Position numbers and translations under genes: made by a program. The notes under the pieces are model-generated. The model was not told the origin of the DNA, made no database searches, and saw nothing but the letters and a program-made list of their open reading frames with translations. From Psychroserpens sp. SPM9 (lineage in GTDB: Bacteria > Bacteroidota > Bacteroidia > Flavobacteriales > Flavobacteriaceae), in NCBI RefSeq assembly GCF_025153525.1, contig NZ_JANZNR010000001.1, positions 124,001 to 188,000 on the forward strand: a stretch of DNA of 64,000 bases, written 5' to 3'. Shown in pieces: positions 2,009 to 8,497 of this stretch (the first letter of the stretch is position 1; each line of letters starts with the position of its first letter).

Positions 2009-3178
2009 TTAGTATTCTAAAGCCTGATTTAAATCGGCAATAACATCTGCAACATTTTCCAAACCAACCGATATACGCACCAAACCATCAGTAATGCCAA
2101 CTTCCAAACGGTCAGCTTCGGTAAGTTTAGAGTGTGTCGTTGATGCTGGATGTGTTACAATGGTTCGTGTATCACCCAAATTGGCCGACAATGAGCACAA
2201 TGCAATTCTATTTAAAAACTCACGCCCTGCTTCTAAACCACCTTTAACTTCAAAAGCGACCACATTTCCACCTAATTTCATTTGCTTTTTCGCGATGTCA
2301 TATTGTGGATGTGATTTTAAAAACGGGTATTTCACCAGATTAATATTAGGATGCTTTTCTAAAAATTCGGCTACAGCTAAAGCATTCTCACAATGTTTTT
2401 CTAATCGTACGGCTAAAGTTTCTAAACTTTTAGATAGCACCCAAGCATTAAATGGTGACAAAGCTGGTCCTGTATTTCTTGAAAACAGATAAATTTCCCG
2501 AATCAAATCTGCTTTTCCAACGGTAACACCTCCTAAAACGCGACCTTGACCATCAATTAATTTGGTTGCAGAATGAATGACCAAATCGGCACTAAATTTT
2601 ATCGGATTTTGCAAATATGGTGTAGCAAAACAATTATCAATGACCAGTAAGATATTGTGCTTTTTGGCTATCTGACCCAAACGTTCCAAATCGAGAATAT
2701 CGACCGCTGGATTGGTTGGACTCTCAGCATACAGTATTTTGGTTTGAGGTTGAATTAGCGCTTCAATACTATCTAAATTATTGACATCAAAATAACTTGT
2801 TTCAATATTCCATTTAGGTAAAAACTTAGTAAAAAGTCCGTGAGTCGAACCAAAAATACTTCTTGCCGACACAACATGATCTCCAGCATTTAATAAAGCC
2901 GCAAAGGTTGAAAACACGGCAGACATTCCTGTGGCAAAGGCATAACCCGCTTCGGCACCTTCCATTTTACAAATCTTTTCAACAAACTCAGAAGTATTTG
3001 GGTTTGTAAATCGGCTATAAATGTTTCGTTGTTTTTCTTCGGAAAACGACGCTCTCATGTCTTCGGCATCTTCAAAAACAAAACTTGACGTCAGATATAA
3101 CGGTGTAGAATGTTCTAAAAACTGAGAACGTTCCGATTGTGTTCGTATAGCAATAGTCTCAAAATTTTCAGTACTCAT
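2009..3178 (-). CDS. metZ: O-succinylhomoserine sulfhydrylase-type PLP enzyme
   Basis: A 389-residue Cys/Met-metabolism PLP enzyme (fold type I). The PLP-binding lysine is K206 in HSATKLIDGQGRVLGG, and the GQGRVLGG continuation is characteristic of MetZ. These enzymes make homocysteine directly from an activated homoserine and sulfide. The gene starts 3 bp after the hom stop and precedes the Rrf2 gene, so it belongs to the methionine operon. A second sulfhydrylase (MetY) is encoded upstream, so cystathionine gamma-synthase or lyase activity is a possible alternative role; the family subclass is less certain than the family. Confidence 0.85.
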   Translation of the reverse strand: MSTENFETIAIRTQSERSQFLEHSTPLYLTSSFVFEDAEDMRASFSEEKQRNIYSRFTNPNTSEFVEKICKMEGAEAGYAFATGMSAVFSTFAALLNAGDHVVSARSIFGSTHGLFTKFLPKWNIETSYFDVNNLDSIEALIQPQTKILYAESPTNPAVDILDLERLGQIAKKHNILLVIDNCFATPYLQNPIKFSADLVIHSATKLIDGQGRVLGGVTVGKADLIREIYLFSRNTGPALSPFNAWVLSKSLETLAVRLEKHCENALAVAEFLEKHPNINLVKYPFLKSHPQYDIAKKQMKLGGNVVAFEVKGGLEAGREFLNRIALCSLSANLGDTRTIVTHPASTTHSKLTEADRLEVGITDGLVRISVGLENVADVIADLNQALEY

Positions 3179-3181
3179 AAC

Positions 3182-4255
3182 TTAATGTAATTGGTTAGAA
3201 AGCTTAATAATATCAGATAGTAATCCTCTTGCGGTGACTTCTTTTCCGGCACCAGCACCTTGAATCACTAAGGGTTGATCGCCATAGGCTTCAGTAAAAA
3301 TTTCAAACAGTGAATCAGAGCCTTTTAATTGTCCGAGTGCCGATTCCCTTTCTTCAGAAACAAGCTTCACTTCTAAGGTTTCATCAGCAACATTTAATTC
3401 GCCAACATAACGTAACACCTGATCTTTTTGTAAACTTAATTTTCGTTCTCCAAACGGCTGGTCTAACTCCTTAATTCGTGATTTAAACTGATTCAAACTC
3501 GTCTTTCCGTTGAGTTGTTTTGGCACTAAGGATTCTATATGTATCTGCTGAAACTCTACCTTTAAGTTGAGTTCTCTGGCAAGAATGAGCAATTTTCTAG
3601 CAACATCATTTCCTGAAAGATCTTCACGCGCATCAGGTTCGGTTAAGCCTAAGGCCTCTGCTTTGGAAAGCACTTCTGAAAATGGCACATCTTCCGAAGA
3701 AAACGTATTAAACACATAACTCAATGAACCAGAAAACACACCTCTAATCTTTGAAATTGTATCTCCAGAATTGTAAATACTCCTCACAGTTTCAATGATT
3801 GGCAATCCAGCACCAACATTAGTTTCGTATAAAAACTTTTTATTATTGTCTTTTAAGTTTTGACGTAAAGCATTATAAAAATCTAAGGCTAAAGTATTGG
3901 CAATTTTGTTAGCTGAAACAATATGAAACCCATTTTGGATTAATGTCTTATAATGCTGAACAAAATCAGAGCTAGCCGTAGCATCTACAGCAATGACATG
4001 ATCGTATTTCTTTTCATTGATATACTGAATAACCTCATCCATTTGATACGGATTTGAAAATCTGCTAAAATCACTTTCCCATGTGTTAGTTAGTGTGTTA
4101 TCTTCAAAAAACACCAATCTTGAATTGGCTACAATAGGAATATGTACATCTATAGATTGCTCTTCTTTAAGTCGTACTTTGGCCTTGTTGATCTGATCAA
4201 TTAATGTGCTTCCAACATTACCTATTCCGAATATGACGATGTGTATTTTTTTCAT
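3182..4255 (-). CDS. hom: Homoserine dehydrogenase
   Basis: A 357-residue monofunctional homoserine dehydrogenase, reducing aspartate semialdehyde to homoserine with NAD(P)H. The Rossmann motif GIGNVG is at residues 10-15, the family motif NVGAGLPIIETV lies in the middle, and LSGNDVARKLLILARE marks the catalytic domain. No aspartokinase or ACT domain is attached. The start overlaps the 3' end of metX by 38 bp; the Rossmann motif needs this ATG, so the overlap appears real and implies translational coupling. The product is the substrate of the upstream acyltransferase. Confidence 0.93.
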   Translation of the reverse strand: MKKIHIVIFGIGNVGSTLIDQINKAKVRLKEEQSIDVHIPIVANSRLVFFEDNTLTNTWESDFSRFSNPYQMDEVIQYINEKKYDHVIAVDATASSDFVQHYKTLIQNGFHIVSANKIANTLALDFYNALRQNLKDNNKKFLYETNVGAGLPIIETVRSIYNSGDTISKIRGVFSGSLSYVFNTFSSEDVPFSEVLSKAEALGLTEPDAREDLSGNDVARKLLILARELNLKVEFQQIHIESLVPKQLNGKTSLNQFKSRIKELDQPFGERKLSLQKDQVLRYVGELNVADETLEVKLVSEERESALGQLKGSDSLFEIFTEAYGDQPLVIQGAGAGKEVTARGLLSDIIKLSNQLH

Positions 4256-5237
4256 TTTTGATAAAAGTATTAGGTTGGAAAATGGGTTTTAAAAACTTGA
4301 TAAGCTGTTCGTATTCGATTAAAAAAGCATCATGACCATGAATGGATTTAATTTCAGAAATGCTGACATTATCTTTTATAAGTTTGACATCAACATAAGT
4401 TTCCCAGTTTTCTTCAGACTTAAAAAATAAATCACTTGGAATTGTTATGATATGAATATGCGAACTTATGGTTTTAACAACGTCATCTAGAGCGCCTCTA
4501 TTTTTAGTAATATCAATGGTTCTTAAAATCTGGTTCATCAGTTTGTAAGCCGATAAATTGAAGCGTTTGTTAAGCGCTTTTCCGTGATAATCCAGCCAGC
4601 TTTCGACATTAAAACGTGCTTTAGAAACTTCGGTACGTTGAAACTTTTGAGTTAAAGATTCTGGTGTTCTGTATAAGGTCATGGCATGCATACGAGCATC
4701 GGCTAAAGGCGCTTCTGAATGATTTAAAATCGCATCTTGAATATGACAATTAGCAATAAGCCAGTCGGTCGATTTCCAATCGCTGGCAATCGGAATTAAA
4801 TGCGTAATCAAATTAGGTTTTAAAGCTGCCAGTTCCCAGGCAATTCCGCCACCAACCGATCCGCCAATCACAGCAAAAAGCGATGTAATATTTAAGGATT
4901 CTAATCCCATTGCAAAAATTTCGGCAATAGTGCGTGCTGTAAAATCTTTATAATTGTCGATGAGATGGGCTTCAATATTATCAAATCCATTTCCAGGAAT
5001 ATTAAACGCTAAAACGGTATAAACATTAGTATCGATACATTTGTTACTACCAATTAAATCATTCCACCAACCCTCCTTTCCGCAGACGTTAGAATTTCCT
5101 GTCAATGCGTGATTGACCATCACAATGGGTGCCTCATGTAAAGGTTTCCCAAAGGTTTGATAGGACAATTCTATCGTTTGACGCACACCAGACGGGAGTT
5201 CAAATTCTGAAATTGATATGTATTGTAATGCTGCCAT
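4218..5237 (-). CDS. metX: Homoserine O-acyltransferase, MetX-like alpha/beta hydrolase
   Basis: A 339-residue alpha/beta-hydrolase-fold enzyme of the MetX type, which activates homoserine with acetyl- or succinyl-CoA. The nucleophile elbow is GGSVGGG with Ser127. Asp269 (IPSDLFF) and His302 (HGHDAF) complete the expected triad, and VNHALTGNSNV lies near residue 41. The protein is slightly shorter than classical MetX and has GGSVGG where those have GGSMGG, as is usual for the Bacteroidota branch. It lies 75 bp downstream of metY and overlaps hom. Acetyl versus succinyl specificity cannot be read here; the presence of both MetY and MetZ leaves it open. Confidence 0.85.
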   Translation of the reverse strand: MAALQYISISEFELPSGVRQTIELSYQTFGKPLHEAPIVMVNHALTGNSNVCGKEGWWNDLIGSNKCIDTNVYTVLAFNIPGNGFDNIEAHLIDNYKDFTARTIAEIFAMGLESLNITSLFAVIGGSVGGGIAWELAALKPNLITHLIPIASDWKSTDWLIANCHIQDAILNHSEAPLADARMHAMTLYRTPESLTQKFQRTEVSKARFNVESWLDYHGKALNKRFNLSAYKLMNQILRTIDITKNRGALDDVVKTISSHIHIITIPSDLFFKSEENWETYVDVKLIKDNVSISEIKSIHGHDAFLIEYEQLIKFLKPIFQPNTFIKNEKNTHRHIRNR

Positions 5238-5312: not shown

Positions 5313-6605
5313 TTAAGCTAATACTGTTTTTTTAACGACTTCGAAAGCCTCTTTTAAATCGGCTTTTAAGTCTTCGATATTTTCAATACCAACCGACAAG
5401 CGAATTAAGTCTTTAGTCACACCTGTAGTTTCCTGAGCTTCATCACTCAACTGCTGGTGCGTTGTACTTGCTGGATGAATAATCAATGATTTGGTATCGC
5501 CAATATTGGCTAAAAGTGAAAATAGCTTAGTCGTATCGGCAATTGTTTTAGCCGATGCGTAGCCGCCTTCAACACCAAACGTCACGATACCGCTTTGTCC
5601 GTTTGGTAAATATTTTTCAGCCAAAGCTTTATATTTACTGGTTTCTAATCCAGGATAATTGACCCAATTAACTTCGGGTTGTTCTTGTAACCATTGAGCT
5701 AATTCGAGTGCATTTTCACTATGCTTTTTAATCCGTAATTCTAAGGTTTCAAGTCCTTGAATAATTTGAAAGGCATTAAACGGACTCAAAGCTCCGCCAT
5801 AATCACGAAGACCTTCAATTCTAATTTTTGCAATAAACGCCGCATCTCCAATAACTTCACTGTAAACTAAACCATGATAGCCTGCTGAAGGCTCAGTAAA
5901 CTCTGGAAATTTACCGTTGGTCCAGTCAAACGTACCTGCGTCAACGATGATTCCGCCAAGAGATGTTCCGTTACCATTGATGTATTTGGTTAACGAATGA
6001 ATAACAATGTTGGCACCATAATCAATTGGATTGAGCAAATATGGTGTCGCTACTGTATTATCAACAATAAAAGGCACTTTATGAGCTTTGGCCTGACTGG
6101 CAATAGCTTCGATATCTAATACATCTAATTTTGGGTTTCCAAGGGATTCTACGAAAAAAGCTCTGGTATTTTCCTGAGCCGCTTTTTCGAAATTTTCAGG
6201 GTTAGATGGGTCTACAAAAGTTGTCGTAATACCATGTCTTGGTAAGGTTACATTTAATAAATTATAGGTTCCACCATACAAACTATTAGAAGCTACAATA
6301 TGATCACCAGCTTTTAAAAGCGTTAATAATGTGGTTGAAATTGCTGCAGTTCCTGAAGCTGTAGCAACGGCTGCAATACCGCCTTCGAGAGCGGCAATAC
6401 GCTGTTCTAGAATATCATTGGTTGGATTATTTAGACGTGTGTAAATAAATCCGGGAACCGATAAATTAAAACGCCCAGCGGCATCATCTGAATCATCAAA
6501 AACGTAAGCCGTAGATTGATAAATTGGAACCGCTCGTGTTCCTCCTGTTTGATTAACATCGTGTCCTGCGTGCAACGCTTTTGTTGCGAATTTTTGTGTA
6601 CTCAT
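5313..6605 (-). CDS. metY: O-acetylhomoserine aminocarboxypropyltransferase (sulfhydrylase)
   Basis: A 430-residue PLP enzyme, matching the length of MetY rather than the shorter MetB/MetZ. PLP lysine K207 sits in HSLTKYINGNGTSLGG, a MetY signature, and the N-terminal LHAGHDVNQTGGTRAVP is also typical. It converts O-acetylhomoserine and sulfide to homocysteine and acetate. It is the first gene of the metY-metX-hom-metZ cluster and is preceded by a SAM-I riboswitch, so it should be switched off when SAM is plentiful. Confidence 0.93.
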   Translation of the reverse strand: MSTQKFATKALHAGHDVNQTGGTRAVPIYQSTAYVFDDSDDAAGRFNLSVPGFIYTRLNNPTNDILEQRIAALEGGIAAVATASGTAAISTTLLTLLKAGDHIVASNSLYGGTYNLLNVTLPRHGITTTFVDPSNPENFEKAAQENTRAFFVESLGNPKLDVLDIEAIASQAKAHKVPFIVDNTVATPYLLNPIDYGANIVIHSLTKYINGNGTSLGGIIVDAGTFDWTNGKFPEFTEPSAGYHGLVYSEVIGDAAFIAKIRIEGLRDYGGALSPFNAFQIIQGLETLELRIKKHSENALELAQWLQEQPEVNWVNYPGLETSKYKALAEKYLPNGQSGIVTFGVEGGYASAKTIADTTKLFSLLANIGDTKSLIIHPASTTHQQLSDEAQETTGVTKDLIRLSVGIENIEDLKADLKEAFEVVKKTVLA

Positions 6606-6687
6606 TTTTCTAAGTTTTTGAGTTAAATACTAATTAAAACAAAAGCCAAATAAGCCTCATGAGAAGCGTACTTAATAGAAAAATGTT

Positions 6688-6726: not shown

Positions 6727-6850
6727 GAGTTATCTATCCGATTACACGATAAATGAATCGTGCTTTCAAGTAGAATTTAGCACCTTCTTAATAAATTTAA
6801 GGGTTGCTAAGGTTTCAGCGAGTCTAATCTCTCCACCTTTCTTGATAACA
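6727..6850 (-). ncRNA. SAM-I (S-box) riboswitch controlling the metY operon
   Basis: The minus strand shows the S-box signatures in order: TTATCAAGAAAGGTGGAG, then GAAACCTTAGCAACC, then AAGGTGCTAAATTCTAC, and a closing GATAAC. P1 forms from GTTATC (6849-6844) and GATAAC (6734-6729). These match the universally conserved SAM-I core, including the kink-turn region and the GCAACC and GGTGCTAAnTCC segments. It lies about 120 nt upstream of metY and is followed by a hairpin plus T-tract. Binding of S-adenosylmethionine is expected to reduce expression of the methionine operon. Confidence 0.95.
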
Positions 6851-6879
6851 TTTCAGTAAGTTATTGAACTTTGTGAGCA

Positions 6880-6911
6880 CAAATATTGCAACATAAATTT
6901 TAATAATCCAA
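6880..6911 (-). promoter_or_regulatory. Probable promoter of the metY operon
   Basis: The minus strand has TTG (6911-6909), a 21-bp spacer and AATATTTG (6887-6880). The latter matches TAnnTTTG at seven of eight positions. Transcription would start about 25 nt upstream of the riboswitch. Confidence 0.5.
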
Positions 6912-7097
6912 ATGAAACCGAAAATTTTTCTAAATAATTAACATAATCGCAATAAAACCGAAATATTTTCTATAATTATGATTTTTATAGCTTTTTTATT
7001 CAGAAAACGAAACATATGTTATTAATCTCATTTTCAGCAGGTATTAGAAACAAAGACCTTATTTGTAAACATTCTTTTCTAGTTTCAATAATATCTG

Positions 7098-7105
7098 TAC
7101 TTTTG
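7098..7105 (+). promoter_or_regulatory. Predicted -7 element of metK
   Basis: TACTTTTG matches TAnnTTTG exactly. It would start transcription around 7110-7113, directly at the 5' end of the SAM-II-like element. A clear TTG at the -33 position is missing. Confidence 0.6.
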
Positions 7106-7113
7106 TTGCCATT

Positions 7114-7165
7114 AAAGAGGAAAAATTTGTTCTGATTGCAACCTCATAAAAAAATGCTAAAGCAG
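7114..7165 (+). ncRNA. SAM-II-like riboswitch upstream of metK
   Basis: A compact pseudoknot candidate. P1 pairs GAGG (7117-7120) with CCTC (7142-7145) around a 21-nt loop ending GATTGCAA, and is followed by ATAAA and ATGCTAAAGCAG. The order AATTTG, TTGCAA, P1 3' strand, nTAAA, GCTAAA matches the SAM-II (metA motif) core. A second helix can form between loop CTGATTGC and 3' GC-TAAAGCAG, with CTG/CAG replacing the CC/GG pairs of the well-studied env9b RNA while keeping the T-A pairs that contact SAM. The downstream gene is SAM synthetase. SAM-II is known from Alphaproteobacteria and some Bacteroidota. P1 is short (4 bp), so some doubt remains. Confidence 0.72.
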
Positions 7166-7240
7166 TTAGTTTTCAACTTCTCTAGCGACTGAGCAATCTC
7201 AATTTATTTTTCATAACTAATAAAAATTTAAAAGGGATTT

Positions 7241-8497
7241 ATGGCATATTTATTTACTTCGGAAAGCGTTTCTGAAGGACATCCAGATAAAGTAGCTGAT
7301 CAAATTAGTGACGCATTAATAGATAATTTTTTAGCTTTTGACAAAGAGTCTAAAGTGGCTTGTGAAACTTTGGTCACAACAGGTCAAGTGGTATTGGCTG
7401 GTGAAGTAAAATCGAACACCTATTTGGATGTTCAAAAAATCGCCAGAGACACCATTAACAAAATTGGCTACACTAAAAGTGCCTATATGTTTGACGGTAA
7501 CTCTTGTGGTGTGTTTTCGGCTATTCATGAGCAATCTGAAGACATCAATCGTGGCGTTGACAGAGCCAGCAAAGAAGAACAAGGTGCTGGTGACCAAGGA
7601 ATGATGTTTGGTTATGCCACGCGTGAAACCGATAATTACATGCCTTTGGCTTTAGATTTATCACACCGTATTTTAAGAGAGCTTGCCGATTTAAGACGCG
7701 AAAATAAAGACATTACTTATTTACGCCCTGATTCTAAAAGTCAGGTAACCATTGAATACAGTGACGATAACGTACCGCAACGTATTGACGCTATTGTAGT
7801 TTCGACGCAGCATGACGAGTTTGGAGATGACGACACTATGTTGGCTAAGATTAGAAAAGATATTATTGACATTTTAATCCCAAGAGTTGTTGCTAAATTA
7901 CCTGAGCATATTCAAATTTTATTTAATGACGATATCACTTATCATATCAATCCGACTGGGAAATTCGTTATTGGCGGACCTCATGGTGACACTGGATTAA
8001 CAGGACGAAAAATTATTGTCGATACTTACGGTGGAAAAGGCGCACATGGTGGTGGTGCATTTTCTGGAAAAGACCCAAGTAAAGTAGACAGAAGTGCTGC
8101 CTATGCAACGCGCCATATTGCAAAGAACATGGTTGCTGCAGGTGTTTGTGATGAAATTTTAGTACAGGTAAGTTATGCTATTGGTGTGGTAAAGCCGACG
8201 TCAATTTTTGTAGATACATATGGCACTTGTCCGTTTAATATTACCGATGGTGAGATTGCCAATAAAATAGCACAACTATTTGATATGCGACCAGCTGCCA
8301 TAGAAGAACGTTTAAAATTACGTCAGCCTATGTATAGTGAAACTGCGGCTTACGGACATATGGGACGTGAGTATCAAACCGTTAGCAAAACCTTTGAACA
8401 ACCTAATGGCGACCCAGTCACTCTAGATGTTGAATTATTTACCTGGGAGAAATTAGATTATGTTGATAAAGTAAAAGCTGCTTTTGGATTAGCATAA
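7241..8497 (+). CDS. metK: S-adenosylmethionine synthetase
   Basis: A 418-residue methionine adenosyltransferase that makes SAM from methionine and ATP. The ATP motif [12 protein letters not shown] and the phosphate-binding loop [19 protein letters not shown] are both intact, and the protein starts with the usual [27 protein letters not shown] lies 5 nt before the ATG. It is transcribed away from the methionine operon, carries its own SAM-II-like leader, and is followed by a strong terminator, so it appears to be a single-gene unit regulated by its product. Confidence 0.98.

Follow-up and report, generated by a model that had tools for sequence, protein, structure and literature searches.

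Two unrelated SAM riboswitch classes ahead of divergent methionine and metK genes, and a candidate anti-aptamer switch behind SAM-II in Flavobacteriaceae

Methionine synthesis and S-adenosylmethionine (SAM) synthesis lie behind two unrelated SAM aptamer classes in the window (the whole 64,000-nucleotide stretch of Psychroserpens sp. SPM9 DNA analysed here), with a SAM-I aptamer heading a metY-metX-hom-metZ-like cluster on the minus strand and a SAM-II aptamer heading metK on the plus strand. The pairing is not special to this locus: 151 of the 199 family genomes sampled carry both classes, in most cases without the back-to-back layout. We judge it somewhat probable that the two RNA classes split SAM feedback between them, SAM-I acting by termination on methionine synthesis and SAM-II acting as a translational OFF switch on metK. 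The aptamer matches, the gene assignments and the covarying elements behind SAM-II (H1 and H2) come from the sequence and its comparison among relatives; from these we infer SAM binding, the OFF direction and the level of output, namely translation for SAM-II and transcription for SAM-I.

Two aptamer classes at the metY-metK locus

An Rfam scan of the whole 64 kb returned RF00162 and RF01726 as the sole two matches at the gathering threshold, both of them full length (model positions 1-108 of 108 and 1-60 of 60, respectively). The aptamers are separated by 259 bp and lie on divergent strands, with the features of the locus arranged as follows.

2009..3178, minus strand: metZ-like O-succinylhomoserine sulfhydrylase gene (NF006003, 518.5 bits, cut-off 522)
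3182..4255, minus strand: homoserine dehydrogenase-like gene, hom (best matches aspartate kinase/homoserine dehydrogenase models, 379.2 bits, cut-off 726)
4218..5237, minus strand: metX-like homoserine acyltransferase gene (NF001209, 172.5 bits, below the cut-off of 331)
5313..6605, minus strand: metY, O-acetylhomoserine sulfhydrylase family (TIGR01326, 643 bits, cut-off 495.1)
6727..6851, minus strand: SAM-I (S-box) aptamer (Rfam RF00162, 73.6 bits, gathering score 44.4, E 2.3e-15)
7098..7105, plus strand: promoter-like TACTTTTG, fitting TAnnTTTG and ending 5 nt before the SAM-II aptamer
7111..7170, plus strand: SAM-II (long-loop family) aptamer (Rfam RF01726, 64.0 bits, gathering score 44, E 5.3e-10)
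7241..8497, plus strand: metK, S-adenosylmethionine synthetase (TIGR01034, 511.6 bits, cut-off 309.4)

A first-pass annotation made from the letters alone had placed a SAM-I riboswitch ahead of the minus-strand cluster and a SAM-II-like pseudoknot, at 7114-7165, ahead of metK on the plus strand, less than 300 bp apart, and had proposed a scan with the two Rfam models. Both models are significant, above their gathering thresholds, the SAM-II coordinates agree within a few bases, and the spacing, the genes on either side and the assignment of methionine and SAM synthesis to two unrelated aptamer classes are borne out by the Rfam matches and gene calls.

Among the five genes the curated cut-off is passed by metY and metK alone, with the metX-, hom- and metZ-like genes clear best matches below theirs, and the best models for the hom-like gene matched over their dehydrogenase part alone. 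metK is single copy, with one metK match in the whole genome, and its start lies 70 nt from the SAM-II aptamer. The sequence TAnnTTTG, which we take to be the -7 promoter box consensus of the phylum Bacteroidota, is found no more than 60 nt upstream of 153 of 158 SAM-II/metK aptamers, compared with 8.8 expected in shuffles. Within the SAM-II aptamer, three of the five P1 pairs show double changes in 35 relatives, and P1 taken jointly with three pseudoknot pairs yields 12 double-change cells against 4.9 in shuffles (0/500); the pairs that contain a double change number 3 against 1.9 (117/500). At the outermost P1 position, 25 of 31 sequences lack pairing, and the three tested pseudoknot pairs are paired in 100% of cells with zero double changes, and so carry little information.

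The whole genome holds one SAM-II and two SAM-I matches. The second SAM-I (L002, L034) lies at G000:C11:119549-119668, approximately 4.3 kb left of the window, with the gene behind it encoding a 333 aa PF02574 homocysteine S-methyltransferase domain protein. The SAM-I leaders would govern the metY cluster and this homocysteine methyltransferase gene, and the lone SAM-II would govern metK. Elsewhere on the minus strand of the window, an Rrf2-family regulator lies inside the met/cys cluster (1575-1985; CymR model 74.8 bits, well below the cut-off of 195) and a DUF2061 membrane protein gene (1189-1449) sits between a cysH-like gene and the Rrf2 gene; an Rrf2 homologue is divergent from SAM-II-metK in L095 and L111.

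Distribution of SAM-I and SAM-II

The family sample consists of 199 genomes, chosen by even sampling of a larger group. Of these, 187 have SAM-II (182 above the cut-off) and 157 have SAM-I; both classes occur together in 151 by a hand tally from two tables, and six have SAM-I without SAM-II. One single-contig, 99% complete family genome (G118) has SAM-I with the SAM-II match absent, a possible natural loss on metK.

Of 198 genomes sampled across the phylum, 167 have SAM-I and 26 have RF01726 (24 above the cut-off). The 26 comprise 19 Flavobacteriaceae, two members of a second family of the order (f2), four of a single further family of the class (f3) and a lone weak match outside these. RF00521, present in 12 genomes (five above the cut-off), adds little. 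SAM-I is therefore widespread in this sample, with SAM-II a narrower trait. For 25 genomes chosen from the 172 without RF01726, each with at least one listed SAM-I, inspection by eye found, among the SAM-I matches listed, none closer than 60 kb to metK on the same contig.

Arrangement around SAM-II

Around SAM-II matches of 97 genomes we collected 100 regions, each up to 7.2 kb long, taken among the matches listed with E better than ~8e-9 and in handle order up to G119, and scanned all of them with Rfam. metK is headed by SAM-II in 95 regions, with 42-108 nt from aptamer to start codon; the five regions without metK downstream (L038, L039, L080, L082, L103) were left out of the leader sets. 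SAM-I occurs within the fetched 3.5 kb in 35 regions at varied gaps, 20 divergent and 15 downstream on the same strand, 13 of the latter preceding the first met gene observed after metK. A divergent SAM-I with a gap below 300 bp is present in 11 regions, seven of them with a gap of 125-128 bp. Mapped onto a 95-tip metK tree, the 15 tips with a divergent SAM-I at a gap <700 bp are dispersed, with 12 changes of state compared with a mean of 14.2 in shuffles, and the 15 same-strand tips form clusters, with six changes compared with 14.3. The back-to-back layout therefore recurs, yet is a minority form.

The back-to-back position itself probably carries no regulatory meaning and would then be a remnant of an old neighbourhood, with each riboswitch serving its own transcript alone, a reading that is compatible with the explanation of each switch preferred here. 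It is consistent with the presence of a nearby SAM-I in just 35 of the 100 regions, at varied gaps, and with the near-shuffled number of changes of the divergent state on the metK tree. The recurrence of the 125-128 bp gap in seven regions speaks against it, however, and may reflect constrained divergent promoters or kinship.

The SAM-II matches L035-L191 range from 56 to 109 nt in length owing to an insertion, in many cases hairpin-like, that separates P1 from the A-rich stretch; the insertion of L177-L179 sits inside the P1 loop. The SAM-II match of L082 (G055) is followed, ~1.2 kb downstream, by a large gene with domains for pterin binding, B12 binding and activation of methionine synthase, and a metK match is absent from the region.

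Possible replacement of SAM-I by SAM-II

A SAM-I match is absent from 22 of the 97 region genomes. metY lies under SAM-II, either directly or right behind metK without an intervening SAM-I, in nine of these 22 genomes compared with two of the 75 with SAM-I (Fisher p 1.4e-5, from hand-tallied counts uncorrected for kinship). A second SAM-II is present in three of the 22 (G004, G052, G081), in each of which one SAM-II heads a gene cluster that includes a PF02574 homocysteine methyltransferase (L039, L080, L103). In the window's genome, a gene of this type follows the second SAM-I. The other SAM-II heads metY-metX-hom in G004 (L038), and metK-metY-metX in G052 and G081 (L079, L102). Among the 13 others of the 22, the neighbourhoods show no metY under SAM-II. 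QueF-like and DUF6580 genes come first behind the SAM-II of L080 and L103, and a DUF6580 gene comes first in L039.

Terminator-like hairpins

The suggestion of the first-pass annotation that the two riboswitches may differ in mode has gained computational support, from terminator-like hairpins behind SAM-I and from the anti-aptamer/start-region switch proposed below for SAM-II. The hairpin of the window is a pattern match.

6637..6675, minus strand: terminator-like hairpin behind SAM-I, with 13-base arms, one mismatch and a U-rich tail (its 5-pair core also listed separately)

Similar hairpins lie 48-56 nt behind the SAM-I aptamer in L040, L043, L059, L074, L094, L117 and L126. Such hairpins follow 25 of 37 SAM-I aptamers compared with 7.7 in shuffles that keep base composition only, a set of 37 that counts the window itself, the nearly identical L074 and L002, the second SAM-I of this genome. 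By the same rule the hairpin is absent behind L002, and no antiterminator was identified behind SAM-I. At high SAM, SAM-I would most likely stop transcription at the terminator behind the aptamer. An intrinsic terminator behind SAM-II was rejected, with 4/95 leaders compared with 3.9 in shuffles, and 3/95 compared with 3.5 by another rule; the window's SAM-II leader is among the four sites and absent from the three.

Anti-aptamer elements behind SAM-II

Between SAM-II and metK, the printed leaders carry recurrent elements of two kinds, complementary to the two aptamer halves. H1, in the first 30-40 nt of the spacer, is complementary to the pseudoknot 3' strand GCTAAAGCAGT, and H2, often CAAAT or GCAAT, is complementary to the aptamer 5' half. 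The structures proposed for the window leader are listed with their computed pair probabilities.

7156..7186, plus strand: H1 hairpin of the proposed SAM-free state, 7156-7167 with 7175-7186 (~0.44-0.47 unconstrained)
7120-7126 with 7206-7212 and 7134-7139 with 7193-7198, plus strand: H2 of the proposed SAM-free state (~0.42-0.48)
7195..7239, plus strand: proposed start-region hairpin, 7195-7200 with 7234-7239 (0.34-0.49 unconstrained, 0.66-0.86 with the aptamer blocked)

The leader set comprises 158 sequences, 95 initial and 63 hold-out, five of 68 having been dropped from the latter (L170, L177, L178 and L180 without the anchored core motifs, L181 without a metK match). L074, of the same genus and with a near-identical leader, was left out of the SAM-II leader statistics on CAAAT, offsets, accessibility over -20..+15, terminators and codon pairing. 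CAAAT is present in 60 of 95 spacers compared with 13.7 in shuffles, and GCAAT in 22 compared with 4.6, with CAAAT associated with aptamers reading GATTTGACTG (48/63 vs 12/32, Fisher p 3e-4).

Anchoring on CAAAT and reading the flanking bases alone, partner bases at offset -2 are Watson-Crick in 38/59 leaders compared with 22.9 in shuffles (0/2000), with matches in 46/60 compared with 39.0 at offset -1 (5/2000) and in 41/60 compared with 35.2 at offset +6 (5/2000); the best of the remaining offsets is -7 (63/2000), and most are without signal. Among the 63 hold-out leaders CAAAT occurs in 28, with offsets -2 and -3 giving 29/2000 and 50/2000, respectively, and covariation at offsets -1 and +6 not significant.

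In swaps of spacers between leaders over the full set of 158, H2 pairs at -15.94 kcal/mol for own spacers compared with -14.24 for swapped (z -9.9, 0/5000) and H1 reaches z -4.0 (0/5000), although such tests remove kinship incompletely. The strongest H2 control, the reversed spacer, gives z -1.8 (203/5000), and the 60 nt upstream give z -1.0 (847/5000); the H1 controls stand at z +1.3 and +0.2. A run on the minus strand of both partners (z -10.1) was disregarded as a control because complementarity is symmetric. In the hold-out leaders alone, H2 gives 0/5000 and H1 27/5000.

In an alignment of 35 of 41 leaders (L102, L112, L004, L005, L011 and L015 omitted for ease of alignment), 82.4% of the cells of H1 and H2 together are paired, compared with 80.5 in shuffles (0/500) and no more than 55.8 in slid versions. 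Double-change cells number 17, compared with 5.9 in shuffles (0/500) and no more than nine in slid versions. Pairs showing a double change number five in register, a count that two slides equal or exceed (five and six); the slide by one column that gives six pairs has seven such cells compared with 17. On a metK tree, Watson-Crick double changes number 5, 6, 4, 2 and 2 at H2 offsets -3, -2, -1, 5 and 6, exceeded by pairing losses of 25, 27, 14, 16 and 19. We read these patterns as H1/H2 helices that are real but loosely kept. The window's own leader is a weak example, with H2 at z -1.0 against shuffles and an unconstrained fold no better than shuffles (z 0.62).

Start region and direction of the switch

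With the SAM-bound state modelled solely by blocking the aptamer bases in the fold, the start region from -15 to +5 is less open in the bound than in the free state over 95 leaders (unpaired 0.571 free vs 0.497 bound), with 75 of 95 changing in that direction (p 1.6e-10). The difference is gone when the switching spacer is shuffled (0.520 vs 0.526), and the hold-out leaders give 0.594 free and 0.515 bound (47/63). The effect is modest, with the accessibility of the wider stretch -20..+15 unchanged (0.562 vs 0.558, p 0.69). The spacer pairs better with its own start region than with those of other leaders (6/5000; reversed control 493/5000); for the aptamer 5' half, the own start region is instead a poorer partner than the others (4994/5000). 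A spacer pairing with metK codons, assessed over the first 60 nt of the gene, was rejected as not own-specific (4389/5000), and the duplex of the spacer with -15..+60 is not stronger than that of shuffled spacers (p 0.62). Shine-Dalgarno-like words occur in the last 16 nt of 5/158 leaders. The openness of the start region, the own-partner pairing and the rarity of Shine-Dalgarno-like words therefore favour an OFF switch on translation.

In the absence of SAM the SAM-II spacer would fold back, with H1 on the pseudoknot 3' strand and H2 on the aptamer 5' half, leaving the start region of metK accessible. Once SAM is bound, the aptamer would close, the two freed strands would pair with the start region and metK translation would be lowered. 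The proposed start-region hairpin of the window adjoins the metK ATG and competes with H2, bases 7195-7198 having as alternative partners 7134-7137 (H2) or 7236-7239 beside the ATG. Blocking the aptamer raises the helix 7195-7198/7236-7239 from ~0.48 to ~0.86, with the mean start openness of this leader barely moving (0.487 free vs 0.468 bound).

Rho-dependent control of metK, in which the SAM-bound state would expose a C-rich, G-poor spacer to Rho and H1/H2 would hide it at low SAM, appears unlikely. The stretch -45..-21 changes most between the two states (unpaired 0.340 free vs 0.500 bound, 95 leaders), the first 35 nt of the spacer contain 26.7% C and 11.8% G, Rho is encoded in the genome and the SAM-II spacers have no excess of intrinsic-terminator-like sites, all of which would suit Rho. 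The bias of C over G is no independent evidence, however, because the spacer is complementary to the purine-rich aptamer strand; furthermore, the spacer is short (42-108 nt), and the start-region effect, lost with shuffled spacers, favours translation. It is more doubtful still that H1/H2 tune only the kinetics or affinity of the aptamer, with mRNA stability or simple pseudoknot blocking as the output. H1 is formed from sequence directly behind the aptamer, which would leave a short time for SAM to bind, and in Sinorhizobium meliloti high SAM is reported to make RNAs with SAM-II leaders more stable (PMC9373788, in part); however, the own-specific pairing of spacer and start region and the change in accessibility would be left unexplained. 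An ON switch for metK, with SAM-free helices occluding the leader and SAM opening it, is very improbable: the stretch -45..-21 is more open in the bound model, but the start region itself changes the opposite way. Furthermore, feedback from a pathway's own product is generally expected to repress, which is also at odds with an ON switch.

Returning to the division of feedback between SAM-I termination and translational SAM-II repression, the SAM-I aptamer in other organisms binds SAM at ~4 nM and the SAM-II aptamer at ~1-10 uM (PMC1273637, in part); if those affinities hold here, rising SAM would shut methionine synthesis before metK. A broader and tentative reading, at somewhat less than even odds, is that SAM homeostasis in Flavobacteriaceae relies on two RNA sensors that differ in output level and probably in threshold, controlling methionine synthesis by termination and SAM synthesis by an undescribed anti-aptamer/start-region switch, with the classes exchangeable. 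The exchangeability would be seen in some SAM-I-less lineages with SAM-II ahead of metY and of homocysteine methyltransferase operons, the kinds headed by SAM-I in the window's genome; if this holds true, evolution has itself swapped one riboswitch class for the other at the same genes. With both classes in 151 of 199 genomes and SAM-II on metK in 95 of 100 regions, the reason for two folds per ligand therefore becomes testable. Additionally, the covarying anti-aptamer elements suggest a translational riboswitch route where Shine-Dalgarno sequences are rare.

Comparison with known systems

The cited papers enter this comparison in part. The SAM-I side matches the S-box (RF00162) in its full-length aptamer, its downstream methionine genes and its terminator-like hairpin, with nothing unusual. 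The long-loop SAM-II family RF01726 was reported for Bacteroidetes and marine sequences (Weinberg 2010, PMC2864571), and the window aptamer is a full-length match above the gathering score; the Rfam model, by contrast, has 60 positions and covers the aptamer alone. For RF01726, the part of that article covered here, Additional File 1 being outside its scope, leaves metK, H1/H2 and co-occurrence with SAM-I unmentioned.

The SAM-II leaders of S. meliloti metA and metZ, one translational and one predicted to terminate transcription (PMC9373788), belong to the same aptamer superclass. They control access to the Shine-Dalgarno sequence, whereas the switch proposed here would hide an A/U-rich start region by means of the freed anti-aptamer strands. 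Tandem bi-mechanism SAM-II/SAM-V and SAM-II/SAM-I-IV riboswitches, the former acting once on transcription and once on translation (PMC9481103), likewise bring two SAM aptamer classes close together. Their two aptamers lie on one RNA, whereas those of the window lie on opposite strands ahead of divergent genes, on two transcripts serving two pathway steps, and do not form a tandem riboswitch, in which one transcript holds both.

Barrick and Breaker 2007 reported no single species with both classes (PMC2258182), their table equating SAM-II with RF00521 and not with the long-loop family reported in 2010 (PMC2258182, PMC2864571). Within the portions of the literature searched, supplements lying outside its scope, neither a SAM-II expression platform with H1/H2 nor both classes in one genome was found described. 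Both aptamers and their genes are ordinary; what seems new within that literature is the split between the classes across the family, the pattern of replacement and H1/H2.
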